The notes under the pieces: generated by a model
Seen by the model: the letters and a program-made list of their open reading frames with translations, nothing else
Databases searched by the model: none
Told to the model about the DNA's origin: nothing
In this document: positions 19,225 through 42,533 of the stretch, one piece after another
Numbering within the stretch: the first letter of the stretch is position 1
Layout: every line of letters starts with the position of its first letter
Translations under genes and position numbers: made by a program
Assembly (NCBI RefSeq): GCF_004305975.1
Contig: NZ_BHZI01000011.1
Coordinates: 1-44,279 of the forward strand
Length of the DNA: 44,279 nucleotides
Direction of reading: 5' to 3'
Origin: Streptomyces otsuchiensis
GTDB taxonomy: Bacteria; Actinomycetota; Actinomycetes; Streptomycetales; Streptomycetaceae

Positions 19225-19977
19225 ATGCGAGTGACCGGAGTGGTGCGGGCGATCAGGGCGACGGTGTTCGCCGGCGTCTGCGTCGTACTCGCGCTGGTCG
19301 GGCACGTCCACATGTCCGGCTCCGCGGTGCCGCCGCTCGTGGCGCTCGGTGCGTTCGCCGGCGTGGCGGTGGCCACGTGGGCCTGTGCCGGAGTGGGGCG
19401 CGGGCCGATGACGGTCGCGCTCGCCGCGATCGCGGTACAGGGCGGGCTGCACCTGGCGTTCTCACTCGGCCAGTCGGCCGTCTCGCCCCGGCCCGGGGCA
19501 GCGGTCACCTCACCGGTGCAGGATCTCGCGCTCTCCCTGATGTGCGGTGGCAGGCTGGGGCAGCCGCCCTCCCACGCCGAAGCGGTCGAAGTGGTCACGG
19601 CGGCGGGCCTCGCTGTGCCGGGGCACGGTGGGCACGGTCACGGCGCGGTGGGGCATCACGCCGCCGACGCCGGAGCGCACGCCGCGGCCGGCGCGGCGCA
19701 CCTTCACTCCGGCGGCATGCTCGCTGCCCACCTCGGTGCGGCGGTGCTGTCGGGCCTGTGGCTGGCCTGGGGCGAACGGGTCACCTGCGATCTGCTGTTC
19801 CTCCTCGGCGTGTGGCTGGCGGCGCCGATGCGCCTGATCCGGCTGTGGTCGGCACCGGTACCGCGTCTCCCCGGGCCGGTCTGCCTGCCGGCCACCGAGG
19901 TTCCGGCCCTGCGGGCACGCCTGCTGCTCCACACGTTGATCTCGCGGGGCCCACCGCGTCACTGGGCTGTCGGCTGA
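19225..19977 (+). CDS. His-rich multi-pass membrane protein, paralogue of the 31457-32170 product
   Basis: 250 residues. Hydrophobic segments lie near residues 10-28 (ATVFAGVCVVLALVGHVHM), 35-55, 62-82, 168-187 (MLAAHLGAAVLSGLWLAWGE) and 190-205. Between the third and fourth is a histidine-rich loop (HGGHGHGAVGHHAADAGAHA) well suited to binding metal. The protein ends with ISRGPPRHWAVG. The protein at 31457-32170 shares VFA-VCV-LA-VGH-H-SG, the LSGLWLA-GER block and the ISRGPP end, so the two are paralogues. Each is followed by an ECF sigma gene, and I infer a membrane metal sensor or anti-sigma-like partner. The family is not one I recognise. The start is the ATG at 19225; a GTG two codons on is possible. 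Confidence 0.78.
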   Translation: MRVTGVVRAIRATVFAGVCVVLALVGHVHMSGSAVPPLVALGAFAGVAVATWACAGVGRGPMTVALAAIAVQGGLHLAFSLGQSAVSPRPGAAVTSPVQDLALSLMCGGRLGQPPSHAEAVEVVTAAGLAVPGHGGHGHGAVGHHAADAGAHAAAGAAHLHSGGMLAAHLGAAVLSGLWLAWGERVTCDLLFLLGVWLAAPMRLIRLWSAPVPRLPGPVCLPATEVPALRARLLLHTLISRGPPRHWAVG

Positions 19978-20018
19978 CGACAGCGGGCACGACGCGGCGC
20001 CTTCGGGGCGTCGTGGAA

Positions 20019-20037
20019 CCGGGCCGCAGCGGCCCGG
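20019..20037 (+). other. hairpin between membrane protein and sigma factor genes
   Basis: CCGGGCCG-CAG-CGGCCCGG is a perfect 8-bp stem with a 3-nt loop, 41 nt after the membrane-protein stop and 55 nt before the sigma-factor start. It could attenuate read-through or stabilise the upstream message. There is no T tract. Confidence 0.45.
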
Positions 20038-20091
20038 CTGTACCCGGGCGACCGCGGTCGCCTCCTTCCTCTCATGTGACGAGGTCATCTG

Positions 20092-20799
20092 ATGATCACC
20101 CTTGCCCTGCCGGCGCCTGCCCGGAAACCGGGTCCCGCAGGTCGCGCACCCCTGCCGGCGGCGCCGCTCCGGACCCGGCACGCCGGCGGGTCGCCCGCCG
20201 TACCGGGCACGACGCCCACCGAGGATGTGCCCACCGAGCTGGCCCTGCGCGCCGCGCGCACCGGGGCGCCGGACGACGTCGCCAGGTTCGTGACCGCCGT
20301 CGAACGCGATGTGCTGCGGTACATCGCGTTCCTGCGGCCCGACACCGACGGCGTCGAGGATCTGGCGCAGGAGACGATGCTGCGGGCCATCCTGGCCCTG
20401 CCCCGCTACGAGGGGCGGGCCTCGGCACGCACATGGCTGCTGTCCATCGCCCGCCGCACCGTGGTGGACAGCGTCCGGCGGGCCGCCGTCCGGCCACGCC
20501 TGTCGCTCTCCGAGAGCTGGGAGCGCGAGGCCGAGGGACGTCCGGCCCACGCTCTGCCGGGGTTCGAGGAGGGCGTGGCGCTCCGGGACCTGCTGAACGC
20601 GCTCCCCGACGAACGCCGTGAGGCGTTCGTCGCGACGCAGATGTGGGGCGTCTCCTACGAGCGGTGTGCCGCGCTGTGCGGATGCCCGGTGGGCACGATC
20701 CGGTCCCGGGTGTCCCGCGCGCGTGCCGAACTGGCGCGGATGCTGGAAGCCGCCGAGGGGCCGGAGAGCCACCGCGTGGCCGTCTCCTCCTCGCTCTGA
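20092..20799 (+). CDS. ECF-type sigma-70 family RNA polymerase sigma factor
   Basis: 235 residues. Sigma region 2 runs from about residue 60 to 120 (DVLRYIAFLRPDTDGVEDLAQ, with the core-binding and -10-recognition part ALPRYEGRASARTWLLSIAR). Region 4 runs from about 160 to 215 (LLNALPDERREAFVATQMWG, GCPVGTIRSRVSRARAELARML). There is no region 1.1 or 3, as in ECF factors. The first 45 residues are a Pro/Ala-rich extension. It follows the His-rich membrane protein by 114 nt on the same strand. The paralogous sigma factor at 32303-32962 shares RASARTW, LSIARRTVVDS and the PGF-EG-AL block. It probably directs expression of the convergent copper operon. Confidence 0.9.
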   Translation: MITLALPAPARKPGPAGRAPLPAAPLRTRHAGGSPAVPGTTPTEDVPTELALRAARTGAPDDVARFVTAVERDVLRYIAFLRPDTDGVEDLAQETMLRAILALPRYEGRASARTWLLSIARRTVVDSVRRAAVRPRLSLSESWEREAEGRPAHALPGFEEGVALRDLLNALPDERREAFVATQMWGVSYERCAALCGCPVGTIRSRVSRARAELARMLEAAEGPESHRVAVSSSL

Positions 20800-20807
20800 C
20801 GGTGAGG

Positions 20808-20837
20808 GCCGTGGGCCGGCTCAGGCCGGCCCACGGC
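20808..20837. terminator. bidirectional terminator hairpin
   Basis: A perfect 13-bp GC stem (20808-20820 with 20825-20837) around the loop TCAG, nine bases after the sigma-factor stop and between convergent genes. There is no T tract, which is usual in Streptomyces. Confidence 0.7.
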
Positions 20838-20908
20838 TCCGCGCACACTCAGCCGGCCCACGGCTCCGCGCACACTCAGCCGGGCCCACCGCCCCGCGCA
20901 CGCTCAAC
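20827..20908. repeat. 27-bp tandem repeat, about three copies
   Basis: Units at 20827-20853 and 20854-20880 are identical (CGGCCCACGGCTCCGCGCAC then ACTCAGC). A third degenerate unit follows at 20881-20908. The array starts inside the terminator stem and ends over the PCu(A)C stop codon. Confidence 0.8.
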
Positions 20909-21446
20909 TGCTCGGCGGCACCACCACGGCGGTCGCGGGGACCTCACCCGCCTGCCGGAAGGTCAGCACGAAATCGACGCGCTCACCGTTCGTCAGAGGA
21001 CGGTCCACCGACAGCATCACGTTGGGCGTGAAGGGACTCATCTCCAATGTGGTCCCGGCCGCCACGGTGATCCGCGGAATCATGATCATTCTGCCCGCGC
21101 CCGTGGTCAGTTCCCGGTCCGCGAACATGGCTTCCCCGCGCTCGGTCCGGACGGCGAGCAGTTCGTCGTCCGAGCCACCGGTGTTGCCGATGTCGAAGAA
21201 GACGCCGGTGGTGGGCTGGGTGTCGAGGACGGGCAGGAAGACCGTCCCCTGGCCGACCGTCACCTCGGCGGGGCTGCCGGCCTGACCGGCCGCCGCCCAG
21301 GCGGTCAGGCACGCCAGGGTCAGCAGTCCGGCGGCGAGCGGCGGCAGCCCGGCTCGGGCTGCCGACCGCCATGGCGGAGGTGCGGCCGCTGCCGCCTCGG
21401 CGGACGGGCGGGCGCCGGTCTCGGGCGCGGGTTCGGCGACGCTCAT
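20904..21446 (-). CDS. copper chaperone PCu(A)C family protein, ligands degenerate
   Basis: 180 residues. One N-terminal membrane anchor (LPPLAAGLLTLACLTAWAAAG, about residues 34-54) exports a cupredoxin-like PCu(A)C domain that normally holds Cu(I) outside the membrane with an H-M...H-x-M set. Here GRMIMIPRITVAAGTTLEMSPF keeps the methionine segment. The place of the second His is PNVMLSV, with Asn, and the first His is not found, so copper affinity is probably altered. The start overlaps the stop of the copper ATPase gene (ATGA), so both are made together. It is convergent with the ECF sigma gene. Confidence 0.78.
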   Translation of the reverse strand: MSVAEPAPETGARPSAEAAAAAPPPWRSAARAGLPPLAAGLLTLACLTAWAAAGQAGSPAEVTVGQGTVFLPVLDTQPTTGVFFDIGNTGGSDDELLAVRTERGEAMFADRELTTGAGRMIMIPRITVAAGTTLEMSPFTPNVMLSVDRPLTNGERVDFVLTFRQAGEVPATAVVVPPSS

Positions 21447-23701
21447 CCGGCGCTCCTCGGGTCGGGACGGCGCCCACGCCGGGGGGAGGGGCTCCAGGTG
21501 CGCAGCCGCAGGCTGTTCAGGACCACCAGCAGTGAGCTGACGGACATCGCCGCTGCGGCGACCATGGGGTTCAGCCAGCCCGTCACCGCCAGCGGCAGCA
21601 TCAGGGCGTTGTAGGCGAACGCCCAGAGGAGGTTGGCGCGGATGGTGGACAGCGTCCGGCGCGCCAGTGCGGCGGCGTCGGCCAGAGCGGCGAGTTCCCC
21701 CCGGATCAGGGTGATGTCGGCTGCCCCGACGGCGGCGTCGGTACCGCTGCCCATGGCGATTCCCAGATCCGCGGACGCCAGTGCGACGGTGTCGTTCACT
21801 CCGTCTCCGACGACCGCGACCCGCCGTCCCTCCTGGCGTAGCCGAGCTACCAGGCGCGCCTTCTCCTGTGGGCTGTGGCGAGTGTGGATCTCGTCGATCC
21901 GAAGCTCGGCGGCGACGGCACGCGCCGGCCCCTCGGAGTCGCCCGTCGCGAGAACGGGGCGTACGCCCATCCGCCGCAGGCGATCCACCGCCTGGTAGGC
22001 ACCACTTCGCACGACGTCGCCCAGACAGATCACCGCGGCCGGCTCACCGTCGAGGACGACCAGCACCGCGGTGAACGCGGCGGACTCGGCCTCCTCGGCC
22101 GCGTCGCGCAGGGTGTCCGGCAGGGTTCCGCGGTCGCCCGGCGCTCGGACTTCGACCTGGCGCTCACCGACCCGGGCGCGCACACCGCGGCCGGGTACGG
22201 CCACGAACTCGTCCGCCTCCGGGACCTCCGCCCCCGTACGCACGGCGTGGGCCACCAGCGCGCGGCCCAGCGGATGCTCCGATGCCCGCTCCGCGGCGGC
22301 CGCGACGCCGAGGACTTCGGCTTCGTCGAGCCCACCGCTCACCACGCAGCGGACGACGGACATCCGGCCGGTCGTCAGCGTTCCCGTCTTGTCCAGCACG
22401 ACGGTGTCCACCTGCCGCAGTGCTTCGAGCGCCCTGGGCCCGGAGACCAGCACGCCCAGCTGCGCGCCGCGGCCGGTGGCGGCCATGAGCGCGGTGGGGG
22501 TGGCGAGTCCGAGAGCGCAGGGGCAGGCCACCACCAGCACGGCGACGGCGGCCGTCAACGCGGCCTGCGGGTCGGCTCCGGCACCGAGCCAGAAGCCGAG
22601 CACGGTGACCGCGATGGCGACGACAGCGGGCACGAACCCGCCGGCCACGCGGTCGGCCACCCGCTGCACACGTGCCTTGCCCGCCTGGGCGTCGGCGACC
22701 AGCCGGGCGATCCGGGCGATCTGCGTCTCGTTGCCCACCGCGGTCGCCCGCACCCGGAGCGCGCCACCGCTGTTCACCGCGCCGCCCAGCACCGCGGCTC
22801 CGGGAGCGACCTCGACGGGCTTGCTCTCCCCCGTCATCAGCGAGACGTCCACGGCGGACCGGCCGGCGACGACGACTCCGTCGCTGGCGATCTTCTCGCC
22901 CGGCCGGACCGTGAAGACCGCACCCACGGTGAGGGCCGAGGTGAGGACGGTGCGTTCCGTCCCGTCCGCGGCCCGGACCGTGACCTCACCGGGTACCAGA
23001 TCGGCCAGTGCCCGGAGCGCGGCACCGGTCCCGTCCTTGGCGCGGCTCTCCAGCACCCGGCCCAGCAGGACGAACAGCGGTACGGCGACGGCGGCTTCGA
23101 GGTAGATGTGCGCGATGCCGTCGGAGGCGGACGGCAGGAAGCTGAAGGGCATCCGCATGTCGGGCGCCCCCGCGCCGCCGAAGAAGAGCGCGTAGAGGGA
23201 CCAGCCGAAAGAGGCCGACACCCCGAGGGAGACCAGGGTGTCCATGGTGGCGGTCGAATGCCGCAGCCCGCGCAGCGCAGCGGAGTGGAAGGGGTGTGCG
23301 CCCCAGACCACGACCGGAGCCGAGAGCGCCAGGCACAGCCACTGCCAGTTGGAGAACTGCCAGGCCGGGACCATCGAGAGCACGATCACGGGCAGGGAGA
23401 GCGCCGCGGTCACCACCAGGCGGTGGATCTCCTCGTCGCGGCTCGGGCGCGCGTCGGGCGGGGCACTGTCATCGTTCGCCGGGGCGGCGCCGTACCCGGC
23501 GTTCTCGATCTGGCGGACGAGGTCCTCGGCGGTGGTGGCGCGCGGGTGCGTGACCCGGGCGATGCCGGTGGCCAGGTTGACGGTCGCCCGGACGCCGGGA
23601 AGTCTCGCCAGCCGCTTCTCGACCCGGTTCACGCACGCGGCGCAGGTCATACCGGTTACCGACAGGTCTGTCGTGAGCCCTTCGGCCACGGGGGCGGTCA
23701 C
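21443..23701 (-). CDS. copA: heavy-metal translocating P-type ATPase, Cu(I) type
   Basis: 752 residues of a P1B-type ATPase that exports Cu(I) at the cost of ATP. In order: one N-terminal metal-binding domain with MTCAAC (near residue 17); the actuator TGES; CPC in the sixth membrane helix (VVACPCALGLATPT); the phosphorylation site DKTGT; SEHPLG for the nucleotide; and GDGVND. YN and MSVSSLLVVLNS in the last two helices match the copper-specific set. The start at 23701 overlaps the upstream small gene by four bases and the stop overlaps the PCu(A)C gene, giving a three-gene operon. A GGAACC-N16-CGACCC element lies about 300 nt upstream of its start. Confidence 0.93.
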   Translation of the reverse strand: MTAPVAEGLTTDLSVTGMTCAACVNRVEKRLARLPGVRATVNLATGIARVTHPRATTAEDLVRQIENAGYGAAPANDDSAPPDARPSRDEEIHRLVVTAALSLPVIVLSMVPAWQFSNWQWLCLALSAPVVVWGAHPFHSAALRGLRHSTATMDTLVSLGVSASFGWSLYALFFGGAGAPDMRMPFSFLPSASDGIAHIYLEAAVAVPLFVLLGRVLESRAKDGTGAALRALADLVPGEVTVRAADGTERTVLTSALTVGAVFTVRPGEKIASDGVVVAGRSAVDVSLMTGESKPVEVAPGAAVLGGAVNSGGALRVRATAVGNETQIARIARLVADAQAGKARVQRVADRVAGGFVPAVVAIAVTVLGFWLGAGADPQAALTAAVAVLVVACPCALGLATPTALMAATGRGAQLGVLVSGPRALEALRQVDTVVLDKTGTLTTGRMSVVRCVVSGGLDEAEVLGVAAAAERASEHPLGRALVAHAVRTGAEVPEADEFVAVPGRGVRARVGERQVEVRAPGDRGTLPDTLRDAAEEAESAAFTAVLVVLDGEPAAVICLGDVVRSGAYQAVDRLRRMGVRPVLATGDSEGPARAVAAELRIDEIHTRHSPQEKARLVARLRQEGRRVAVVGDGVNDTVALASADLGIAMGSGTDAAVGAADITLIRGELAALADAAALARRTLSTIRANLLWAFAYNALMLPLAVTGWLNPMVAAAAMSVSSLLVVLNSLRLRTWSPSPRRGRRPDPRSAG

Positions 23702-23907
23702 CGTCCGGTCCCGTGGCCGTGGCCGCTGTCGCCACCGGTGGCCGGGGCTCCCGATCCCGGGTGCAGGGCGGGTGCCACCGGCCCCACGACGGAGCCGGTG
23801 GCGAAGGCGAGAGTGAAGAGGACGAGCAGCAGCGCGGTGAAGCCGGCGGCCGGGGCGCGCGGGACCGCCGCCGCAGAGGGCTGGCGACGGGTGGTTCGCA
23901 GGTTCAT
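23698..23907 (-). CDS. small membrane-anchored protein with Gly/His tail
   Basis: 69 residues: a basic N-terminus (MNLRTTRRQ), one hydrophobic segment (AAGFTALLLVLFTLAFATGSVVG, about residues 20-42) and a short tail ending GDSGHGHGTGR. It is predicted to be a single-pass protein with a His-containing end that may touch metal. It is the first gene of the copper-export operon and overlaps the ATPase start (ATGA), which supports it being real despite its size. No family was recognised. Confidence 0.65.
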   Translation of the reverse strand: MNLRTTRRQPSAAAVPRAPAAGFTALLLVLFTLAFATGSVVGPVAPALHPGSGAPATGGDSGHGHGTGR

Positions 23908-24210
23908 GGGGATCTCTCGGAGCGTGGTCAGGGCGGGCCGGGAATCGGCGGGGCGAAGCGCGTCATGGCGCTCACCCCGGCGTGATCAGCCCGACGTGAC
24001 GTGGGTCGGGCCGCGTCCCGATCCGGTTCCTGCGGATTCGAGCCGCGCCACGGTGACGGCCACCGAGTCCGGTAGGAGGGGAGGGGCGACCCACCGCAGG
24101 ACACTCCCGGCGGCCACAGGAGACATCGACCCTGTGTGCGCCGGCGTCCCGGCGCCTGCCGAGACGGGTGCCGGCCGCCGCTGACCGTGCGGCCGGTACC
24201 CGTCCGCTTC
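23908..24210. other. 303-nt intergenic region
   Basis: It lies upstream of the copper-export operon and downstream of the acyl-CoA ligase stop. Apart from the ECF-like promoter at 24003-24030 nothing is seen; no gene is supported. Confidence 0.45.
24003..24030 (-). promoter_or_regulatory. ECF-type promoter candidate of the copper-export operon
   Basis: On the minus strand GGAACC (24030-24025), 16 nt, then CGACCC (24008-24003), about 100 nt before the first gene of the operon. The same spacing and elements (GGAACT-N16-CGACCA) occur upstream of the metal ABC operon at 33047-33074. GGAAC is the usual -35 core of ECF promoters. Confidence 0.55.
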
Positions 24211-25857
24211 CTACCTCGCGTCGACCGGCGAACCCGCGACACGCGCGCGCAGGGCCGCACGGTCCGGCTTCCCGGCCGGGTTCAGAGGCATTTCTTCCAG
24301 CAGCAGGAGGTGTTCGGGGTGTTTGCGGCGTTCCACCCCGAGGTCGGCGAGATGCCGGCCCACGGAGTCGAGATCGACGGTTCGCCCCTCGCGGACCACG
24401 GCGCAGATGGCCAGGCGCTCGCCCATCAGGGCGTCGGGCACGCCCACGCAGACGGCGTCGCGGATGTCGGGATGAGAGGCGAGCCCTCGTTCGACCTCGG
24501 CCGGGCTGATGTTGACTCCTCCCCTGATCACGATGTCCTTGAGCCGACCCACGACGCGGAGGAGTCCGCCCTCGTCGAGGGTTCCGAGGTCGCCGGTGCG
24601 GACCCAGCCGTCGGGCGCCCGGTAGCGCGCGTCGAGTTCGGGCGCCCCGACGTAGCACATCGGGGACATCGGCCCCCGGGAGACGATCTCTCCCACTTCA
24701 CCGGCCGCCAGCGGCTCGTGCGTGGCCGGGTCGGTGATGCGTATCTCGGTGACCTTCGGGTCGGGGCGGCCCGCGACGACACCCGAGGCGTCGTTGGGTG
24801 GTACCGCTGTGGCCAGGCCGGTGTGGCAGTTGACCCCGTCGGCGGATCCGTAGAGGTTGACGACGGAACAGCCGAAGGCGCGGGCGGCGTCGCCGGCGGT
24901 CGTCTCGTCGAGCGAAGCGCCGCCCAGGACGACGGCCGTCGGTGCGGGCAGGGGCTCGTGATCGGAGCCGAGGCAGGAGAGCATCATCCGCACCATGGTG
25001 GGGACGCCGAAGACATGGGTCGGCTGATGGCTCCGGATGGCTTCCAGAGCGGCTTCGGGCGTGAAGTGATCCAGCAGGACCAGCGTTCCACCGTGTCTGG
25101 CCAGGGTGACCGCGGTGCCGTTGGAGCCGAACGCTGACGCGAGGGGCACGAGGAAGAGGCAGCGCGGCGGTGTTCCGTCGGGGATCAGGGAGGCGAGGAA
25201 GTTCCCGCGCCCGCCTGCCAGGGCGTTGTGTGAGTAGGCCACCATCTTGGGCTCCGCCTCCGATCCCGAGGAGACCAGGATGCGGGCCGGATCGTCGGCG
25301 CGAGGCCGGGCCGGCAGAAACGGTCCGGGGGCGGACCTGGAGAGGGTGCGCAGGGGAACAGCGCCGTCGGGGGCGTCGGCGCCCACGGCGATCACATGGC
25401 GGAGGTGGGGCAACGCCGGGCGCAGCCGGAGAAGGTCGGCGGCGTGCTGGTGGTCCCGGTGGCGGGTAGCGGCGATCACGGCGACCGCTTCCGAGCGTCG
25501 CAGCAGGCACTCGCTCTCCAGAGGACCTCGGCCGACGGGAAACGGAAGGGCCACCGCCCCCAGCGCGGCCAGAGCCAGGTCCGCTGTGACGGCGTCCCGG
25601 CTGTTGGGGAGTTGCACGCCGACCACATCGCCGGGGCCCACGCCGAGGCTCTGCAGGCCGGCGGCAAGACATCGCACTCGGCGGTCGAGTGCGGTGTAGC
25701 AGAGTGCCCCCTTGGCGTCGAGGACGGCGGTGCGGTGCGGATCGGCCACCAGCCGCGCCCGGAAGAGGCTGTACAGGTCCAGGTCGGGGCAGGTGCCGTC
25801 GACGGCCCAGCCCCGGCGGAGATCGGCCGGCAGGAGATCGTGGAGAACAACGGTCAT
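24211..25857 (-). CDS. acyl-CoA synthetase / AMP-dependent ligase
   Basis: A 548-residue class I adenylate-forming enzyme. The phosphate loop is VSSGSEAEPKMVAYS (less Thr/Gly-rich than usual), the aromatic/adenine motif NLYGSADGVN, then GWVRTGDLGTLDEGGLLRVVGR and the catalytic lysine in NPAGKPDR near the C-terminus. It makes acyl-CoA from a carboxylic acid, ATP and CoA. By eye it is nearest to FadD/cyclohexanecarboxylate-CoA ligases; the exact substrate is open. The start overlaps the CoA-transferase stop by four bases, so the two are coupled. Confidence 0.88.
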   Translation of the reverse strand: MTVVLHDLLPADLRRGWAVDGTCPDLDLYSLFRARLVADPHRTAVLDAKGALCYTALDRRVRCLAAGLQSLGVGPGDVVGVQLPNSRDAVTADLALAALGAVALPFPVGRGPLESECLLRRSEAVAVIAATRHRDHQHAADLLRLRPALPHLRHVIAVGADAPDGAVPLRTLSRSAPGPFLPARPRADDPARILVSSGSEAEPKMVAYSHNALAGGRGNFLASLIPDGTPPRCLFLVPLASAFGSNGTAVTLARHGGTLVLLDHFTPEAALEAIRSHQPTHVFGVPTMVRMMLSCLGSDHEPLPAPTAVVLGGASLDETTAGDAARAFGCSVVNLYGSADGVNCHTGLATAVPPNDASGVVAGRPDPKVTEIRITDPATHEPLAAGEVGEIVSRGPMSPMCYVGAPELDARYRAPDGWVRTGDLGTLDEGGLLRVVGRLKDIVIRGGVNISPAEVERGLASHPDIRDAVCVGVPDALMGERLAICAVVREGRTVDLDSVGRHLADLGVERRKHPEHLLLLEEMPLNPAGKPDRAALRARVAGSPVDAR

Positions 25858-27629: not shown

Positions 27630-27631
27630 GT

Positions 27632-27771
27632 CTCTCCTCTCCCGGGACGGCGCTCCGCGCCGCACCGGACGGGCGGTGGCGGGAACCGGTGGGCGTGTGA
27701 ACCCGACCAGCTCCACGGACAGACAGTCGGGCAACCGTTCCCACGGGTTCCCGGAGACCGGGAGAGGAGAG
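27632..27771. repeat. 14-bp inverted repeat holding both ribosome binding sites
   Basis: CTCTCCTCTCCCGG at 27632-27645 and its exact complement at 27758-27771 flank the 112-nt centre of the divergent promoter region. Each arm contains the GGAGAGGAGA ribosome binding site of its gene. Confidence 0.6.
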
Positions 27772-27775
27772 GCCG

Positions 27776-28978
27776 GTGAACGACGCGGACACCTCGCGCG
27801 CGGACCCTCACGACGAGGAAGGGGTCGCGCTACGGGCTCGGGTGGACGAGTTCGTCCGTACCCGGGTCATGCCACGCGAGGGTGACCTCGACGAAGGCGG
27901 CGCGCATGCGGCCGCCGCACTCCGCGACCTGCGAGGGCAGGCTCGGCGCGAAGGGCTCTGGGCACTGCCGCTCCCCGCCGAACTCGGCGGCGGCGGCGCG
28001 GATTTCCGTTCCTACGCCACGTGGGCGGAGGTGGAGGGCGCGAGTGATCACGGCCCCGCCGCGCTGGGGTCGGCGTCTCTGCTCGATGTCACCATGCTGG
28101 CGCGGCACGCCGGGCCGCGGGTGCGGCGCGAGTGCCTGGTCCCTCTGGTCGCCGGGGAACTGCGTGCCTGCTACGCGATGACCGAACCGGATCTGCCCGG
28201 CACCGACCCGCTGCTGACCGCTACCCGGGCGGAGCACCGGCCGGACGGCGGCTGGCGCCTCACGGGACGCAAGTGGTTCACCTCCGGCGCGGCCGACGCG
28301 GACCTGGTGACGGTCCTCGCCCGCACCGACGGCGGCCCCGGGGACCGCACGGGCCTGTCCCTGCTCGTTGTCCCGACCGCCGCCCCGGGGTTCCGCGTGG
28401 TGCGCGAACTGCCGGTCTGCGGGGTCGGTGGCCAGTACGAGATAGAGCTCGACGGGGTGTCGGTGCCGGCTGACCATCTTGTCGGAGCACGAGGCGCGGC
28501 TCTGGCCGTGGCGGGTGAACGGCTGCGGATCGGGCGCACGCTTCGCTGTCTTCGCTGGCTGGGCCAGGCGCAGCGAGCCTTCGACCTGTTGTGCGAGCGC
28601 GCCGCGACCCGCGCGGGTTCACGCGGTCCCCTCGCCGGCCACCAGTTGATCCAGCAACACGTCTTCGACGCCCTGCTCGCGCTGCGCGGCGCGCGTGCTC
28701 TGGTCCACCAGGCGGTGGAGCGGATCGCCTCGGGCGCGGACGCGCGGGGCGAGGTCGGGCTCGCGAAGGTCGCCACCGCCAGGATGCTCCAGCAGGTCGC
28801 GGACTCGGCGATCCAGGTGCACGGCGCGGCCGGGCTCGGTCCGGACACACCGCTGCCGGCGCTCTTCCGCACCGGCCGCGCCGCCCGCCTCCTCGACGGC
28901 CCGGACGAGTTGCACATCACCACCGTCGCCCGCGCCGTCCTGCGCGGGTACCCCGGCGGGGATGCTACGTCCGGGTGA
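27776..28978 (+). CDS. acyl-CoA dehydrogenase family protein
   Basis: A 400-residue FAD-dependent dehydrogenase. The N-terminal helical domain is followed by YAMTEPDLPGTDPL (FAD/substrate loop) and WRLTGRKWFTSGAADADLVTVLAR in the beta domain. The C-terminal helices contain VHGAAGLGPDTPLPALFR and end with LLDGPDELHITTVARAVL. In place of the Y-E-G-T motif with the catalytic Glu it has LDGPDELH, as in the ACAD11-like branch, so the base may sit elsewhere. It oxidises an acyl-CoA to the enoyl-CoA. The start is GTG at 27776 after GGAGAGGAGA. Its last 14 bases overlap the convergent GH88-like gene. Confidence 0.87.
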   Translation: MNDADTSRADPHDEEGVALRARVDEFVRTRVMPREGDLDEGGAHAAAALRDLRGQARREGLWALPLPAELGGGGADFRSYATWAEVEGASDHGPAALGSASLLDVTMLARHAGPRVRRECLVPLVAGELRACYAMTEPDLPGTDPLLTATRAEHRPDGGWRLTGRKWFTSGAADADLVTVLARTDGGPGDRTGLSLLVVPTAAPGFRVVRELPVCGVGGQYEIELDGVSVPADHLVGARGAALAVAGERLRIGRTLRCLRWLGQAQRAFDLLCERAATRAGSRGPLAGHQLIQQHVFDALLALRGARALVHQAVERIASGADARGEVGLAKVATARMLQQVADSAIQVHGAAGLGPDTPLPALFRTGRAARLLDGPDELHITTVARAVLRGYPGGDATSG

Positions 28979-30071
28979 GGTCGACGGCGCCCACGAGCGT
29001 GGCCAGGCCCAGGGCCAGGAAGTAGTCGCCCCAGATCACCTCGTGGCGCGCTGCCAGGCCGCGGTCGGCCTCGTAGCAGCCGTCCAGCAACATGCCCGAC
29101 GGACGACCGGTACCGCCGCCGGAGAGGTGCCGGTGCACCAGGCGGGCCAGGATTCTCGTGGCTCGCTCGGTGTACCGGCCCTCCGGGCGGCCGGGCGCCT
29201 GAGCGAGTTTCAGCAGCGCGACGGCGGTGATCGCGGCGGCCGAGGTGTCACGTGGTCCGTCGCGGCGTGCATGGTCGGCCGGGGGCACCAGCGGACCGGT
29301 GAGCAGCCCCTCCCCCACCAGCAGCCGGTCCACGGTGCCGTCCAAGGGCGTGGCGAGGTTCCGTAGCACCTCGGGCCGCAGCAGCGCGTCCGCGACCGCC
29401 AGAAGAAGCCAGGCGCGGCCGCGGCTCCAGCCCGGTGCGGGCGACGCGCACGCCTGCCAGCGTGCGGTCTCCTCATCGAAGCGCCAGGCGGGAAGCACCT
29501 CCTCACCGCCCAGGCACAGTGCGAGGTGGGCGTCGAGGTGAGCCGCCGCCGCGGCCGCGCCGTCCGGTCCCGCGGCGGCCAGGAGGGGCACCATGCCGGG
29601 GACGCCGTCCGCCCGGGCCAGAAGCCGCGGACCGCCCAGTGCCCCACCCCACGGCACGATGCCGAGGCGCGCGTCCACCGCGGCCAGGCAGGCGGTGGCG
29701 GCGCGGGCGCGGAGTTCAGCCGCGGCCCGCGCGTCAGGGCCCGCTCCGGGCAGGCGTCCCGCGGCGGTCCCGTACCAGAGGATCAGCCCCCGGGTCACGG
29801 TGTCGGCATCCGCCCAGGGGCCGAGTCGGCGCGTGCGGTCGGCCGCGGCCCGCTGGTGGGCGGGCTCCCCGGTTCTGCCGGCGCGCAGCCACAACAGCCC
29901 CGCCCAGAACCCTCCGGTCCAGGAGCCCCGGCGCGTGGACGTCCAGCGGCCGTCGGCGGGGTCGGCGTACAGCGGGAAGCGCTCTCCCACGTCGGCCTCG
30001 GTCGCCGCGACACGGGCGAGGACGCCGTCCAGCGCGTGGCCGGCCCACCGAGGGGCGCCGGGCGCCGTCAC
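28965..30071 (-). CDS. glycoside hydrolase family 88/105-like protein
   Basis: A 368-residue alpha/alpha-barrel protein of the unsaturated glucuronyl hydrolase type. WTGGFWAGLLWLRAG near residue 52, WSRGRAWLLLAVADALL near 215, DTSAAAITAVALLKLA near 285 and VIWGDYFLALGLATL near the end match the helical repeats of GH88. These enzymes hydrate unsaturated uronic acids released by polysaccharide lyases. No signal peptide is seen, so a cytoplasmic role fits. The start overlaps the stop of the MFS transporter gene (four bases), and the transporter may import its substrate. The catalytic Asp pair was not assigned with certainty. Confidence 0.75.
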   Translation of the reverse strand: MTAPGAPRWAGHALDGVLARVAATEADVGERFPLYADPADGRWTSTRRGSWTGGFWAGLLWLRAGRTGEPAHQRAAADRTRRLGPWADADTVTRGLILWYGTAAGRLPGAGPDARAAAELRARAATACLAAVDARLGIVPWGGALGGPRLLARADGVPGMVPLLAAAGPDGAAAAAAHLDAHLALCLGGEEVLPAWRFDEETARWQACASPAPGWSRGRAWLLLAVADALLRPEVLRNLATPLDGTVDRLLVGEGLLTGPLVPPADHARRDGPRDTSAAAITAVALLKLAQAPGRPEGRYTERATRILARLVHRHLSGGGTGRPSGMLLDGCYEADRGLAARHEVIWGDYFLALGLATLVGAVDLTRT

Positions 30072-31270
30072 CGCCCCGCCGTTCGTCGGTCACGGTGAGC
30101 CCACAGAAGGGCGACCGCCCCGGCCGCCGCGAGTTCGCACGCGACCAGCAGCCAGGCCGTGCCGTACCGCTCGGCCTGCGCCAGCAGCCCGAACGCCGGC
30201 GGTCCCAGGGCGAATCCCGCGAAGAAGCCGGCGGCGACGAGAGCCGAGTCGTGACCCGCGCGCCCCGGAAGAGCACGCTGCACCACGAGGACCATGGTCA
30301 CGGCGTTCGCCGACACCGCGAGGAGCCCGACGCCCGCCGCGCCCACCCACACCAGCGCCGGTACGGCCCGGGAGGCGATCAGCACCGCCACCGCGCCGAC
30401 GGCCCCCAGCGCGAGCAGGCCGGGCAGCCACTCCCCACGTCCGGGCCGCGCCACCCGGGACCACGCCACGCGGCCGACGACCCCCGCCACGCCCAGTACG
30501 GCCACGAGCACGCCGGCTTCCGTCGCTCCCATCGAGAGGCCGCGCACCCCGAAGAGCGTGAGATAGGTGTTGACCGAGGCGATCGCCGCACCGAGCAGCA
30601 GCGAGAAGACCGCGAGCCGGGCGACCATGCCGTGGAACGCGTACCCCGCACGGACGCCCGCCGTGGCCGGACGTGGGCTCTCCGGGGGCAGACCCCGCCA
30701 CGCCCACCACGCCAGCAGCAGTGCCCCACCCGCGGCGGCCCAGAAGGCGCTCCTCCACCCGAGCCCGCCGGCCAGGGCGGCCAGAGGCAGCCCCGCCACG
30801 AGGGCCCCGAGTTGAACCCCCGACTGCTTCGTTCCCAGCACCGCGCCTCTTCGCTCGGCCGGGACGACGGCGAGCACGGCGGTGTTGGTCGCCGGGTTGG
30901 CCAGCGCCTGCGGGACGCCTCCGAGAGCGACGGCGCACAGCAGCAGTCCCGGGCCCGGTGCCGCTCCGATGAGGGCGAGCGCACCGCCGGCCGCCAGGAG
31001 CAGAACCACCAGCGATCGCCGGGGCCCGACACGGTCCACGATGCGGCCGCCCAGCGGGGAGAGCAGAGCGGCCGTTCCGAACCCGACCGTGGTCGTCAGC
31101 CCCAACACAACTGGGGAGACGTCGAGTTCATCGACCAGCCGTGGGGCCAGCGCGCCCAGCAGGAACAGCTGGATCATCGAGAACGCCATGCACGCCGTCA
31201 GCAGGGACGCGAGCGGCCACTCACGCGCCGGGGCCCGCCCCGGCGCCGAGACCGCCAATCGGTCCGTCAT
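30068..31270 (-). CDS. MFS transporter
   Basis: About 400 residues with twelve predicted membrane helices. The motif GGRIVDRVGPRRSLVV between helices 2 and 3 is the MFS signature loop (G-x-x-x-D-R-x-G-R-R), and ERRGAVLGTKQSGVQLGAL marks helix 5. It is a proton-linked carrier of an unknown small molecule, probably the oligosaccharide or uronide handled by the coupled GH88-like gene. The ATG at 31270 has GGAG nine bases upstream; a GTG at 31285 is the alternative. No regulator gene is adjacent. Confidence 0.87.
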   Translation of the reverse strand: MTDRLAVSAPGRAPAREWPLASLLTACMAFSMIQLFLLGALAPRLVDELDVSPVVLGLTTTVGFGTAALLSPLGGRIVDRVGPRRSLVVLLLAAGGALALIGAAPGPGLLLCAVALGGVPQALANPATNTAVLAVVPAERRGAVLGTKQSGVQLGALVAGLPLAALAGGLGWRSAFWAAAGGALLLAWWAWRGLPPESPRPATAGVRAGYAFHGMVARLAVFSLLLGAAIASVNTYLTLFGVRGLSMGATEAGVLVAVLGVAGVVGRVAWSRVARPGRGEWLPGLLALGAVGAVAVLIASRAVPALVWVGAAGVGLLAVSANAVTMVLVVQRALPGRAGHDSALVAAGFFAGFALGPPAFGLLAQAERYGTAWLLVACELAAAGAVALLWAHRDRRTAGR

Positions 31271-31456
31271 GACATCCAGCTCCACTCGACTCGGACGGAA
31301 TCACCGCACACTCCAGTGAGTCGGCCCGACGGACGAGATCGTTCCCCGCGCCTGCCCACGAGGAATGCCGAGCCCTCAATGATGCGGCTGTGGCACAACG
31401 GCACCCACGTGGCGGAACCCGCGATTCCCCGGCGCCACTCGAACGACGGTGCGAGG

Positions 31457-32170
31457 ATGACGGCCGTGAGAAGTCCGGGTGACTGCTCAAGGGGCGCGCG
31501 GGCCGCGATGTTCGCGGCCGTCTGCGTGCTGCTCGCGGCGGTCGGCCACACTCACAGCTCCGGCACCGCGATCCCGTGGTGGGTGCTGGCCTCGGCGTTC
31601 GTAGTGACAACAGGTCTGGTCTGGACTCTCGCCGCCCGCGAGCGCGGACGCCTCGCGGTGACCTCGACGGCCCTCGCCACTCAAGCCCTCCTCCACTGCG
31701 CGTTCACCCTCGGCAGCCCTCCACCGCGTGCGCCGGTCCCTGCGGACGACGCCTCACCCGACCACGGGGAGCGAGCACCGGCGGAGCACGGGAGCGCGAT
31801 GCCGTCCGACTGCCCCCTGCACGACGCGGGGCACCAGCACACGCCCGAAGCGGCGGGCCTCGACATGGCCGCGGGAATGGGTGGCCACGACCCGTGGTCG
31901 ATGCCGGCGGGCATGCTGCTCGCGCACCTCGCGGCCGCGGCCCTCAGCGGTCTCTGGCTGGCGCACGGTGAACGGGCCGCGTTCCAGCTCCTGCGCGCGC
32001 TGGCCGGGCTGTTGCACACGCCGCTGAACCTCCTCCGTGCCTCACCGTCCATCAGGCCCCGGCCTACGCCACGCATCCGGGCACCCCGTCACGACCGGCC
32101 GACACGCCTGGTCCTTCTGGTCCATGTCATCAGCAGCCGAGGCCCCCCGGCGGCGACGGCTGTCCCCTGA
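31457..32170 (+). CDS. His-rich multi-pass membrane protein, paralogue of the 19225-19977 product
   Basis: 237 residues with the same plan as the 19225-19977 protein. TM1 is AAMFAAVCVLLAAVGHTHSSG, followed by TM2 and TM3 (ALATQALLHCAFTLG). The His/Met-rich loop includes DHGERAPAEHGSAMPSDCPLHDAGHQHTP in two stretches, and LLAHLAAAALSGLWLAHGER opens the fourth helix. The C-terminus is VHVISSRGPP. The loop adds Cys, Met and Asp to the His, unlike the Gly/His loop of the paralogue, which may mean different metal preference. The frame is open far upstream, but homology and the site GCGAGG place the start at 31457 (ATG) or 31466 (GTG, better spaced). An ECF sigma gene follows. Confidence 0.75.
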   Translation: MTAVRSPGDCSRGARAAMFAAVCVLLAAVGHTHSSGTAIPWWVLASAFVVTTGLVWTLAARERGRLAVTSTALATQALLHCAFTLGSPPPRAPVPADDASPDHGERAPAEHGSAMPSDCPLHDAGHQHTPEAAGLDMAAGMGGHDPWSMPAGMLLAHLAAAALSGLWLAHGERAAFQLLRALAGLLHTPLNLLRASPSIRPRPTPRIRAPRHDRPTRLVLLVHVISSRGPPAATAVP

Positions 32171-32302
32171 GGACAGCGGGATCCTCCCCGAGTGCCCGGC
32201 GTCCCGCGGGCACCCGGGTCCCGGTGCTGCCCCCATGGCAGGCCGTCGCACACGACCGGCGCGCCCCGCGCGTGCCGGCCCTCACCGTAAGGACCTGTGG
32301 CG

Positions 32303-32962
32303 ATGACCCGAGCCCAGACACCAGCCGTCGGCACCTCCGCCCGGCGCTCCCCCGCATCCGACGCGGCCGTCACCCAACTCGCCCTGGCCGCACGCGACGG
32401 TGACCCCGCACGGGTCGACCGCCTGGTGCGCGCCCTCCACCATGACGTACGCCGCTACGTCACCTACCTGAGCGCCGACCCGCAGCTCGCGGACGACCTG
32501 ACCCAGGAGGTCTTCCTCCGGGCACTGGGCGCGCTGCACCGTTTCGCCGGGCGGGCCTCCGCCCGGACCTGGATCCTGTCCATCGCGCGCCGAACCGTGG
32601 TGGACAGCCACCGCCGCGCGGCCGCCCGGCCCCGCATCGCGGACCGCCAGGACTGGCAGCGCGCGGCGGAGCAGACGCAGCGCCACGATCTTCCCGGCTT
32701 CGACGAGGGGATAGCGCTCACCGAGCTCCTGTCCGCCCTCTCCGTGGAACGCCGGGAAGCGTTCGTCCTCACGCAGATCATGGGACTGCCCTATGCCGAG
32801 GCGGCGGCCACCGTCGGCTGCCCCGTGGGAACCGTGCGGTCGCGGGTCGCGCGTGCACGGATCGACCTGATCGGGATCCTCTCCGCGGACGATCCCCGGG
32901 GCACTGATCGCGCGGCGCCGCCGTCGCGGGCGGGAGCACCCGAGCGGGTGTCCGTCCTGTAG
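32303..32962 (+). CDS. ECF-type sigma-70 family RNA polymerase sigma factor
   Basis: About 219 residues. Region 2 spans residues 45-110 (DVRRYVTYLSADPQLADDLTQ, FLRALGALHRFAGRASARTW). Region 4 spans about 140-200 (LLSALSVERREAFVLTQIMG, GCPVGTVRSRVARARIDLIGIL). It is the paralogue of the sigma factor at 20092-20799, with the same SIARRTVVDS and PGFDEGIAL blocks. AAGGA precedes the ATG at 32303 by nine bases; a GTG at 32297 is the alternative. It follows the His-rich membrane protein by 132 nt and precedes the metal ABC operon, its likely target. Confidence 0.9.
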   Translation: MTRAQTPAVGTSARRSPASDAAVTQLALAARDGDPARVDRLVRALHHDVRRYVTYLSADPQLADDLTQEVFLRALGALHRFAGRASARTWILSIARRTVVDSHRRAAARPRIADRQDWQRAAEQTQRHDLPGFDEGIALTELLSALSVERREAFVLTQIMGLPYAEAAATVGCPVGTVRSRVARARIDLIGILSADDPRGTDRAAPPSRAGAPERVSVL

Positions 32963-32991
32963 GAGGTACCAGGCGAGGGTGTTGAGCGCAC

Positions 32992-33045
32992 GGTGCGCGG
33001 TGGGCGGTGGGCGTTCACAGCGCTGTGAATTGCCCGCCGCGCACC
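32992..33045. promoter_or_regulatory. nested inverted repeats with a 16-bp perfect palindrome
   Basis: The outer arms GGTGCGCGGTGGGC (32992-33005) and GCCCGCCGCGCACC (33032-33045) pair with one mismatch. Inside lies the perfect palindrome TTCACAGCGCTGTGAA (33014-33029). The structure ends one base before the GGAACT element of the ABC operon promoter and starts 29 bases after the sigma-factor stop. It may be a regulator site, the sigma-gene terminator, or both. Confidence 0.55.
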
Positions 33046-33046
33046 G

Positions 33047-33074
33047 GGAACTCACCGTGCACACGGCCCGACCA
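33047..33074 (+). promoter_or_regulatory. ECF-type promoter candidate of the metal ABC operon
   Basis: GGAACT (33047-33052), 16 nt, CGACCA (33069-33074), about 68 nt before the ATPase start. It matches the element upstream of the copper-export operon in both boxes and spacing. Confidence 0.55.
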
Positions 33075-33142
33075 ACTGCTGAGGAGGAGGGTGGAACGCC
33101 CCCTCCCCGGACCGGTGACGCAGTTGGCTGGAGGGCTGTTTG

Positions 33143-33778
33143 ATGGGCGGGCTCGATGTCCGGATGCGCGATGTCCACTGCTGGCACGGAAGGACAGCGG
33201 CCGTCTCCGAGGTCGACCTGGAGATCGCCGCGGGCGAGCGGGTCGCGCTGACGGGAACGAACGGCTCCGGCAAGACCACACTGATGCGGGCCGTTCTCGG
33301 CCTCCACCGGCACTTCAGCGGCACTGTCCTGGTGGGCGGGCGCTCCGCCGGCACGGCCACCGAATGGGCGGAGCGCCGCCGTGCCTGCGCCTGGATACCC
33401 CAGAAGCCGGCGGCGGGCCGATTCCCCCTCCTCGGTTCCGAGTTGCTCGCCAGCAGCGGCGCGGCGGAGGAGGCCGCGGACGCCGCCGATCGCCTCGGGG
33501 TCGCCTCACTGGCGAGACACCCCCTGCACACCCTCTCCGGAGGTCAGCTCCAACGGATGTACCTCGCACGCGCCATCGGGTCCATAGCGGGCGGCGCCGA
33601 GGTGCTGATCGCCGACGAACCCACCGCGGCACTGGACTTCGACGGGCAGGACGAGGCCGCCGACATCCTCACCGAACTACCCGTCACGCTGATCGTGGTG
33701 ACGCACGACCGCGCCCTCGCGGGCCGCTGCGACCGGGTCCTGGAGATGGCCGCCGGCAGAGTGCGGGAGGTCTCGTGA
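33143..33778 (+). CDS. metal ABC transporter ATP-binding protein
   Basis: A 211-residue ABC ATPase. Walker A is GTNGSGKTT (near residue 39), the signature is LSGGQLQR and Walker B is EVLIADEPTAALD, with the H-loop His in VVTHDRALAG. It powers the importer formed with the next two genes. The ATG at 33143 has GGAGGG seven bases upstream. The stop overlaps the permease start (GTGA). It is small for the family but complete. Confidence 0.9.
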   Translation: MGGLDVRMRDVHCWHGRTAAVSEVDLEIAAGERVALTGTNGSGKTTLMRAVLGLHRHFSGTVLVGGRSAGTATEWAERRRACAWIPQKPAAGRFPLLGSELLASSGAAEEAADAADRLGVASLARHPLHTLSGGQLQRMYLARAIGSIAGGAEVLIADEPTAALDFDGQDEAADILTELPVTLIVVTHDRALAGRCDRVLEMAAGRVREVS

Positions 33779-34641
33779 ACATCGCCTCCCAGGACCTCGG
33801 CACCCTGCTCCAGCTGATGCCCGTGCAGAGGGCGGCCCTCGCCCTCCTGCTGGCGGCGGTCGGGCTGCCCGTGATCGGGGTGATCATCGTCGGCCTCGAC
33901 ATCATGCCGGTGCGCTTCGCGATGATGCACGTGGCGCTGCTCGGCATCGCGGTCGGACTGCTCACCGGGCTCGACCCGATGCTCTGCGCGCTGGTCGCCT
34001 GCGCCCTGGCCGGCGCCGGGGTGGCCCCCCTCGCCCGAACACCCGACGGCCTCTCCGGCGCGATGGGGCTGTTGATGAGCCTGGCCATCGCGGCCGCCCT
34101 TCTCGTCCTGGCCGTCTCCGGCGTCAACGCCTCCGGCGCCTTCGCCTTGCTCTGGGGTTCCATTCTCTCGGTCGGAACCGCGGACCTGGTGGTGCTCGGC
34201 GCGCTGGCCGTCGTGGTTCCCGGCCTGTTCTGGTGGCGACGGCGCGACATCGGCCTGCTGCTGTACGACAGGGAGCTCGCGCAGTGTTCGGGTGTCCCGG
34301 TCCGTGCTCTGACCCTGGCGTTGCTGGTGCTGGTCGCCGTCGCCGTAGCAGGGGCGATCAAACTCACCGGTGCGCTGCTCGTGGACGCCCTCACGCTGCT
34401 GCCCGCCCTGGCTGCCCGCAGGCTCGGCAACTCGCTGCGCTCGATCGTCCTCTGGGCGATCGGCATCGGTGTCCTGGTGAACCTGACCGGCTTCCTGCTG
34501 GCCCTATCCCTGGACTGGCCTCCCGGACCCGTCCTCGTGCTCACGGCGGGGGCTGTCGTCCTCGCCGTCCATCTCATACCCGAACGGAGACTCAGTTCAT
34601 GGCGCGCACCCGCCTCCCCCTCACTTCCCTCGTCGCACTGA
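33775..34641 (+). CDS. metal ABC transporter permease (ABC-3/ZnuB family)
   Basis: 288 residues with about eight membrane helices. FAMMHVALLGIAVGLLTGLDP near residue 45 and IKLTGALLVDALTLLPALAARRL near residue 200 are the conserved blocks of ZnuB/MntB permeases. The start is GTG at 33775, overlapping the ATPase stop. The 3' end overlaps the binding-protein gene by 43 nt. The ion is zinc or manganese in relatives and cannot be fixed from the permease. Confidence 0.88.
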   Translation: MNIASQDLGTLLQLMPVQRAALALLLAAVGLPVIGVIIVGLDIMPVRFAMMHVALLGIAVGLLTGLDPMLCALVACALAGAGVAPLARTPDGLSGAMGLLMSLAIAAALLVLAVSGVNASGAFALLWGSILSVGTADLVVLGALAVVVPGLFWWRRRDIGLLLYDRELAQCSGVPVRALTLALLVLVAVAVAGAIKLTGALLVDALTLLPALAARRLGNSLRSIVLWAIGIGVLVNLTGFLLALSLDWPPGPVLVLTAGAVVLAVHLIPERRLSSWRAPASPSLPSSH

Positions 34642-35438
34642 CCGTCGCGCTCACCTTCACCGCCGCTTGCGGCTCGGATACCGGTGCCTCGGCGGAGGAC
34701 GGCGCCGGCTCACCCTCGGCGGAGACTGCCGAGGACCGCGACGACGGCGACGGCGACCAGCCGGTGATCGTCGCGACCACCACCTGGCAGGGGGCCTTCG
34801 CCAGTGCCGCCGGAATCGACGAGGTCACGGTCATCGTTCCGCAGTCCGTGCACCACGCGCCGGACTACGACCCCAAGCCGTCCGACCTCGCGGCGATCGC
34901 GGAGGCGGACTTCGTCCTCTACGCACCGTTCGAGCCCTACGCGGAGCAGATCAGGGACGCCGCCGGCTCCGGCGCGGAACTCGTGGAGGTCGATCTCGAC
35001 AACGACCCCGATGTCGTGAGCGCCGAGGTCGCCCGGCTAGGTGCCCTGTTCGGTACCGAGTCGGCGGCGCAGGAGTGGAACGAGTCCTTCGAGAGCGAGT
35101 TGGGCGAGCTGAACTCCGCGATCGAGGACAGCTGGCCGGACGGCGAGAGCCCCCGGGTGGTCACGCAGGTCTACACCGGATGGGCGGCGAAACTGGCGGG
35201 AGCGACGACGGTGGGCACGTACGGACCGGAGGCGGTGACCCCGGCGCAGCTGGCCGAACTGTCGGCCGAGGAGCCGGATCTCGTCCTGGACAACGCGCAC
35301 ATGTCCACCGGTGAGGTGCTGCCGGGCTCGGGCGCCGTCCAGCTGGACGTCGTCAACTATCCCGGCGATGACCTCGACCTGCTCACGGTCTACCGCGACC
35401 TGGCGGAACAGCTCCAGCAGGCGCTGGCAGGGTCCTGA
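34599..35438 (+). CDS. metal ABC transporter substrate-binding lipoprotein
   Basis: 279 residues. A lipoprotein signal peptide (VALTVALTFTAAC) is followed by an acidic Ser/Asp/Glu linker and a cluster A-I (ZnuA/MntA-like) binding domain from IVATTTWQGAFASAAG onward. Possible ligands are HH in QSVHHAPDYDPKPSD and His in LDNAHMSTGE. The classical long His-rich loop of ZnuA is absent. The first ligand block differs from textbook ZnuA (x-H-x-Y-x-P), so the metal is uncertain. The ATG at 34599 lies inside the permease gene with GGAG upstream, which couples the two. Confidence 0.85.
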   Translation: MARTRLPLTSLVALTVALTFTAACGSDTGASAEDGAGSPSAETAEDRDDGDGDQPVIVATTTWQGAFASAAGIDEVTVIVPQSVHHAPDYDPKPSDLAAIAEADFVLYAPFEPYAEQIRDAAGSGAELVEVDLDNDPDVVSAEVARLGALFGTESAAQEWNESFESELGELNSAIEDSWPDGESPRVVTQVYTGWAAKLAGATTVGTYGPEAVTPAQLAELSAEEPDLVLDNAHMSTGEVLPGSGAVQLDVVNYPGDDLDLLTVYRDLAEQLQQALAGS

Positions 35439-41736: not shown

Positions 41737-41746
41737 GGCCCTGAAA

Positions 41747-42157: not shown

Positions 42158-42274
42158 AGTTGAACTCCAGCAGCAGATGGACCCGGCAGACGACGTAAGA
42201 CCTCCTCCGCTGCACCACCCATTCCCAGCGCCTCACCATCACCGGCATCCCCATCATGTGCACGCAGGGACTGG

Positions 42275-42478: not shown

Positions 42479-42533
42479 GCGACGCGGCCCAGGAGAACGC
42501 GGAGCCGTTCGCGGAGATCCGGGAGCACGACTG

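Follow-up and report, generated by a model that had tools for sequence, protein, structure and literature searches.

A candidate SigC-type copper-supply regulon with two membrane protein–sigma factor pairs in Streptomyces otsuchiensis

Two gene pairs in a stretch of Streptomyces otsuchiensis DNA, each encoding a four-helix membrane protein (MP) followed by a SigC-like sigma factor (SIG) of the extracytoplasmic function (ECF) type, appear to belong to one SigC-type copper-supply regulon, a reading to which we assign a probability of about 0.6. The stretch, here called the window, is 44,279 nt of one contig from a 6.15 Mb draft genome. Module 1 (MP1 then SIG1, 19225–20799) and module 2 (MP2 then SIG2, 31457–32962) share a strand; an earlier, sequence-only reading of the window had described them as paralogous modules of the same order and orientation, and both their positions and their paralogy hold. 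Between them lie, in order, genes for PCu(A)C, CopA, a small His-tailed open reading frame (ORF), an AMP ligase, a CoA-transferase-like protein, an acyl-CoA dehydrogenase, a glycoside-hydrolase-like (GH-like) protein and a major facilitator superfamily (MFS) transporter; an ATP-binding cassette (ABC) importer with a ZnuA-fold binding protein follows directly after SIG2. Five copies of a promoter-like box, GGAAC-N17-CGACY, are present in the window, all of them 33–96 bp ahead of an operon of this island (CopA/PCu(A)C, CoA-transferase/ligase, acyl-CoA dehydrogenase, MFS/GH-like and metal ABC importer). Judged by sequence, putative copper-acquisition genes here share an ECF-type box beside a sigma gene, the pattern by which we recognize a SigC-type regulon. 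The features are as follows.

19225–19977, + strand: MP1, four-helix membrane protein with a Gly/His-rich loop, 250 aa (from sequence; no Pfam or NCBIfam family)
20092–20799, + strand: SIG1, SigC-like ECF sigma factor, divergent copy (profile scores; long branch in tree)
20904–21446, − strand: PCu(A)C copper chaperone (Pfam PF04314, 8.7e-16)
21443–23701, − strand: CopA-type P1B ATPase (TIGR01511, 472.8 bits, cut-off 397)
23698–23907, − strand: small ORF overlapping the start of CopA, with a single hydrophobic stretch and His in its tail (no Pfam family)
24004–24030, − strand: box GGAAC-N17-CGACC, 96 bp upstream of the small ORF/CopA operon (pattern search)
24211–25857, − strand: AMP-forming acyl ligase (Pfam PF00501, 7e-61)
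25854–27629, − strand: family III CoA-transferase-like protein, start as called by program (Pfam PF02515, 9.3e-68)
27682–27708, + strand: box GGAAC-N17-CGACC, 67 bp upstream of the acyl-CoA dehydrogenase (pattern search)
27725–27751, − strand: box GGAAC-N17-CGACT, 95 bp upstream of the CoA-transferase/ligase operon (pattern search)
27776–28978, + strand: acyl-CoA dehydrogenase (Pfam PF00441, 2.3e-31)
28965–30071, − strand: glycoside-hydrolase-like protein (by inspection; no match to any family)
30068–31285, − strand: MFS transporter (Pfam PF07690, 2e-36)
31319–31345, − strand: box GGAAC-N17-CGACT, 33 bp upstream of the MFS gene (pattern search)
31457–32170, + strand: MP2, four-helix membrane protein with a His/Met/Cys/Asp loop, 237 aa (sequence; model)
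32297–32962, + strand: SIG2, SigC-like ECF sigma factor, clustering with the island sigma factors of six relatives (profiles, tree)
33047–33073, + strand: box GGAAC-N17-CGACC, 69 bp upstream of the importer ATPase (pattern search; same box in loci L242, L243 and L246)
33143–33778, + strand: metal ABC importer ATPase, AztA-like (NCBIfam/Pfam profiles)
33775–34641, + strand: metal ABC importer permease, ABC-3/AztB-like (NCBIfam/Pfam profiles)
34599–35438, + strand: importer metal-binding protein, ZnuA/AztC fold (Pfam; model fold search)

The MP2 start is ambiguous, at ATG 31457 or at a GTG nine bases downstream. Small ORFs resembling the one at 23698–23907 lie before CopA in some relatives, and the box of the CopA operon is likewise present in some.

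SigC-like sigma factors and a shared box

SIG1 and SIG2 are 58% identical over 175 positions (E 2e-57), with almost identical region-4 recognition-helix segments. For both, the best two NCBIfam profiles are NF007231 (SigC), which is the top match of SIG2 and the second of SIG1, and NF009187, which has no specific name; the next profiles score far lower (99.5 bits for SIG2, 81.2 bits for SIG1). Neither protein reaches the NF007231 equivalog cut-off of 219 bits (171.6 bits for SIG2, 149.3–149.4 bits for SIG1), so we file them as SigC-like and not as SigC. A SigC-profile scan of their own genome was led by SIG2 (171.6 bits) and SIG1 (149.4 bits), the next paralogue scoring 65.2 bits; SigC is their nearest specifically named sigma profile, and they stand clear of the genome's other ECF sigma factors. 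The idea of an undescribed ECF system is thus not supported for the sigma factors, both being SigC-like, and survives for their membrane partner, for which no credible family match was found.

A tree of 111 sigma factors joins SIG2 to those of six island-bearing relatives (L043, L046, L058, L143, L151 and L156; support 100/94; locus labels are ours) and leaves SIG1 on a very long branch of unsure placement. The tandem sigma factors of L115 and L155 and the second of L149 are placed elsewhere despite the island at those loci. Such placements demonstrate no recent duplication in this lineage, contrary to the simple duplication that had been supposed, and indicate that island and sigma factor have not always travelled together.

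The box was first read in spacers following the sigma gene in relatives, as GGGAAC-N17-CGACTACTG, where it precedes both a chalkophore gene and an importer gene of siderophore type. Genome-wide (6.15 Mb), GGGAACN{16,18}CGACY matches 55 times (19 for a reversed-pattern control), four of them within 5.4 kb here; at least four matches of the GGGAAC form would arise by chance with a probability of 7e-4 in the whole window and of 2e-5 in a 17.4 kb region picked afterwards. At a spacing of 17 and with the window included, the box precedes the MFS gene in 11/11 of the examined loci that have one, the CoA-transferase gene in 10/10, the dehydrogenase gene in 10/10 and the importer in 4/4, these loci including several closely related species. 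Across 80 MP loci (1.26 Mb), GGAAC-N16-18-CGACTAC was found 44 times, against 0, 1, 0, 0 and 0 times in five shuffles, and of the GGAAC-N17-CGACY matches 146 lie outside called ORFs and 13 inside them, with ORFs making up 82% of the sequence; for 46 of these 146, no start was called within 250 bp.

We consider it very probable that this sigma factor reads the GGAAC-N17-CGAC box. The box might instead serve another ECF sigma factor and stand beside the MP–sigma pairs through mere clustering of metal genes: the genome has at least a dozen further ECF-like matches, and the match of sigma factor to box is deduced from sequence. That box and MP–sigma pairs go together in Streptomyces gene clusters of three distinct kinds argues against such clustering, to which we give little credence.

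The rest of the genome was sampled from the 51 matches outside the window, by inspecting 17 of them (15 of the 16 with N17, one with N16 and one with N18): 13 lie inside called ORFs and four outside, one of the latter 80 bp before a response-regulator-like gene. A loose form of a SigC-type motif, SSSAAT-N-CGTSSS, was set aside; of 43 regions lying upstream of MP-family genes, 3 contain it.

Copper and its scarcity as the probable signal

The metal is probably copper and the signal its scarcity, an assignment that leans on the company the box and the pairs keep and on the likeness to Mycobacterium tuberculosis SigC (ECF36), which these sigma factors resemble in sequence and whose regulon likewise adjoins copper and diisonitrile chalkophore genes, here with a shared box. 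In M. tuberculosis, sigC induction raises the nrp (chalkophore) operon and ctpB, and sigC deletion causes poor growth in copper-poor medium (PMC7924339); the chalkophore genes respond to copper and not to zinc limitation (PMC9600254); and ctpB is reported to help growth in copper-limited niches (PMC9147137), so a CopA-type pump under a starvation sigma factor is no contradiction. The window differs from that regulon in that its biosynthetic genes are of another kind and its sigma factors score below the SigC equivalog cut-off. CorE of Myxococcus, also an ECF sigma factor for copper, senses the metal through its own C-terminal extension (PMC8999054); SIG1 and SIG2 gave no match to such a domain.

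The closest link to copper comes from Sco (SF2768-type) diisonitrile clusters of Streptomyces. In L244 and L245 an MP–sigma pair heads the cluster and the same box precedes the importer operon; L244 has the box before the biosynthetic genes as well, and L245 has a second one between its first gene and the MFS gene. ScoE passes its cut-off (400 bits) in both genomes and ScoD its own (250 bits) in L244; scores of 525 bits for ScoE and 303 bits for ScoD come from operons that the box precedes. Among four ScoE genomes also searched for the sigma factor, three have an MP–sigma pair 4–5 kb upstream of one ScoE copy, and in the fourth boxes flank the cluster and the sigma gene is on a different contig; one genome (G031) carries a second ScoE copy with no MP–sigma neighbour. 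A second type of cluster beside an MP–sigma pair is a candidate isonitrile metallophore cluster: in L241 (33–5010) the pair and a box-bearing importer are followed by genes for an AsnB-like enzyme, a P450, an isonitrile synthase of the PvcA type and an ankyrin protein. Fungal isocyanide clusters respond to copper (PMC5974471). The box occurs with known diisonitrile chalkophore genes, with a PvcA-type isonitrile synthase cluster and with the window's cluster, and could be used as a sequence tag for copper-acquisition clusters. For the genes between the modules themselves we rejected a diisonitrile cluster: their enzymes belong to other families, and the genome, unlike those with Sco clusters, has no ScoE match.

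The expectation that the first pair lies beside copper genes was borne out, CopA and PCu(A)C both passing NCBIfam or Pfam cut-offs, and that of a metal ABC importer behind the second pair likewise: its ATPase and permease are AztA/AztB/ZnuB-like, yet under the NCBIfam cut-offs, and its binding protein barely clears the Pfam ZnuA cut-off (30.1 vs 29 bits). The importer shares architecture and binding-protein fold with AztABC/ZnuABC zinc importers, and differs in having the GGAAC-N17-CGAC box upstream and in falling below the cut-offs for AztA (109.4 vs 220 bits), AztB (72.3 vs 280) and AztC (14 vs 350). A fold search with the binding-protein model returned ZnuA/AztC/Lmb folds; its H86 aligns to a His of AztC, and H234/M235 are kept in six near relatives.

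The sequence-only reading had seen two sensor–sigma systems that diverged to two metals, with module 1 serving copper and module 2 another metal such as zinc. The differing MP1 and MP2 loops, the divergence of SIG1 and the ZnuA/AztC fold of the binding protein speak for this. Against it, CopA, the importer and the intervening operons are all preceded by one box, the recognition-helix segments are nearly alike, and L115, L143, L155 and L156 combine one pair, or two in tandem, with CopA and the importer binding-protein gene in a single island, which in relatives also holds the enzyme genes. We therefore regard a division between two metals as improbable; CopA, the enzymes and the importer appear to be arms of a single copper-supply programme, in which importer and enzymes may form a further copper-acquisition pathway. 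A compact form of the window's layout occurs in L115, L149 and L155, where the MFS gene and CopA flank two tandem MP–sigma pairs.

The membrane protein beside the sigma factor

MP and sigma factor are linked well beyond the window. A profile of 10 MP-linked sigma factors, run on the genomes of 61 relatives, found 38 copies in 33 genomes, with an MP upstream on the same strand in 29 of the 30 loci examined; from the other side, a sigma gene lies downstream in 76 of 80 MP loci. Both counts are biased towards pairing, the search profiles having been built from pairs (all 10 sigma factors, 11 of the 12 MPs); even so, the rarity of co-occurrence that would have told against a sensor–sigma system was not what emerged. 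At the lone exception, L293 in genome G012, the sigma factor has no MP, and elsewhere in that genome an MP with no neighbouring sigma gene sits in the island (L066). CopA-like genes occur in 32 of the 80 MP loci and PCu(A)C-like genes in 30. The MP profile matches 51 of the 61 relatives, orphans included, against 11 in a phylum-wide sample of 296 genomes.

In the same sample, 44 of the 296 genomes have a SigC-like match; 30 loci were examined, nine with and 21 without an MP. Around the latter, CopA, CopC, YcnI, SCO1 and PCu(A)C are often nearby (by eye), and about 12 show a zf-HC2-like membrane protein (by eye); seven such partners were scanned and contained zf-HC2 in 7/7 cases and DUF2275 in 2/7. 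In L313 and L314 a zf-HC2/DUF2275 protein shares one open frame with a mycobacterial-type SigC; the neighbours there are cobK/cobM-like (named by eye). An ECF36 sigma factor fused to a DUF2275 membrane anti-sigma factor has already been described (PMC8999054); what it has in common with the present system is a SigC-like sigma factor accompanied, close to copper genes, by a membrane partner of several helices.

MP1 and MP2 are 38% identical over 241 columns (E 3e-19, single comparison). They share an LSGLWLA block, as had been noted; the ISRGPP end ascribed to both is exact in MP1 only and reads ISSRGPP in MP2. Their loops do differ, that of MP1 being Gly/His/Ala-rich and that of MP2 containing His, Met, Cys and Asp, and many relatives' loops are rich in Met and His. 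Neither has a credible match in Pfam, NCBIfam or PDB sequences, and 12 MP members searched gave just scattered matches (E 0.02 or worse). Among 38 aligned members, H31, H80, M153 and H157 never vary and C23 hardly does (MP2 numbering); all of them lie within predicted helices or beside them. A low-confidence model (pLDDT 66, pTM 0.38) shows four long helices plus a short one towards the end. With basic residues after helices 2 and 4, the loop probably faces outward and the tail probably lies in the cytoplasm, by the positive-inside rule. The protein has no zinc finger and no Pfam zf-HC2 or DUF2275 match, which sets it, as a candidate copper-sensing partner, apart from the DUF2275 anti-sigma factors.

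On these grounds we can sketch how the system would work. With ample extracytoplasmic copper, MP, by way of its outward Met/His loop, the conserved Cys/His/Met residues in its helices and its short cytoplasmic tail, would keep the sigma factor encoded beside it inactive. When copper is scarce, the sigma factor would be released and RNA polymerase would read GGGAAC-N17-CGAC promoters; the copper-acquisition pathway (ligase, CoA-transferase, dehydrogenase, MFS transporter and metal ABC importer) would then be made, and CopA and PCu(A)C would deliver copper to exported enzymes. For M. tuberculosis, PMC7924339 describes sigC as monocistronic, with no anti-SigC factor identified, and calls the mechanism of copper-deficiency sensing open; here, by contrast, an MP gene precedes the sigma gene. 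A clear box and a sigma-linked membrane protein in a soil genus make SigC-type copper-deficiency sensing testable.

Linkage to the sigma gene suggests a sensor, and orphans in copper-delivery-type operons suggest a carrier; that MP is sensor and inhibitor rather than copper carrier we hold tentatively, at slightly under even odds. The contrary view, which we find less likely though worth keeping in mind, is that MP binds or transfers copper in the membrane and regulates nothing, the genes being merely co-located and the sigma factor being controlled by transcription, by a structured spacer or by conformation, as proposed for M. tuberculosis SigC (PMC8999054). It gains from the MP paralogues without a sigma gene in YcnI, SCO1, PCu(A)C and CopCD operons (mostly named by eye) and from the long, hairpin-rich MP–sigma spacers. 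It is opposed by the adjacency in 29 of 30 loci and by the zinc-finger anti-sigma-like membrane proteins near many SigC-like sigma factors of other actinobacteria. Two more paralogues without an adjacent sigma gene occur in the S. otsuchiensis genome (L270 and L072, on contigs C215 and C337), one of them followed by ycnI-like and sco-like genes. A bolder version of the regulatory reading seems rather unlikely: MP would be a new, zinc-finger-free class of copper-sensing anti-sigma factor that replaced the DUF2275 partner in Streptomyces, and the ligase, CoA-transferase, dehydrogenase, GH-like, MFS and ABC set would make and reimport a third, non-isonitrile copper-binding metabolite or free copper for a copper-adapted importer of the ZnuA fold. 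A literature search on MP or the box found no paper; as it left subscription literature mostly uncovered, this is weak evidence of absence.

Several observations weigh against a single copper-supply regulon with MP as its sensor. GGAAC is the −35 element of many ECF sigma factors, and 28 of the 80 MP loci have no box outside ORFs. Most MP–sigma operons lack a box of their own (one strict and three looser matches in the 80 loci), so no autoregulation is seen. The window's own genome yields no ScoE match, no isonitrile synthase lies in the island, and the importer resembles zinc importers in its profiles and binding-protein fold. The orphan MPs keep the RGPP tail in their copper-delivery-type operons, which favours copper handling, and profile comparison gives a probability of 0.1% that MP is homologous to zf-HC2/DUF2275 proteins. 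The box is also only moderately specific, GGGAACYN{15,17}CGACTAC having 118 matches in the 61 genomes against 46 for the reversed pattern.

Many of these 118 come from one conserved coding sequence. Thirty loci were examined, with nine matches inside and 21 outside ORFs; the latter stand before PepSY_TM-like genes (seven), siderophore-type binding proteins (six), methyltransferase-like genes (two), one each of a window-type importer, a P450, a chalkophore gene and an alcohol-dehydrogenase-like gene, and no called gene (two), with identities assigned by eye or likeness. The box-bearing PepSY_TM-like genes come from seven genomes (L211, L215, L217, L220, L224, L233 and L238), that of L211 being confirmed by Pfam; the PepSY gene of the window's own genome has no box.

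Spacers and a second upstream element

The spacers between MP and sigma genes measure 100–529 nt across relatives, with some uncertainty from called starts, and occupy 19978–20091 and 32171–32296 in the window. They are rich in predicted hairpins, with a mean z of −1.93 in the 45 that were folded of 74 from relatives and window (−1.58 for the first window spacer and −0.52 for the second), and a possible role is that of an attenuator.

A second element, TTGAGT-N18/19-CGTACC, precedes many MP genes at a near-constant distance (L041–L071 and L081–L160), with 49 copies before MP in the 80 loci and 13 in the first set; it was not found at either window module. We rejected it as the regulon box: its strict form has 43 matches in the 61 genomes, at least seven of them at MP genes. 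A CRP-like TGTG-N-TCACA often lies just upstream of it (by eye). At the right end of the window (37843–44259) are a large repeat-type ORF and an IS-like transposase fragment, both recognized by eye.

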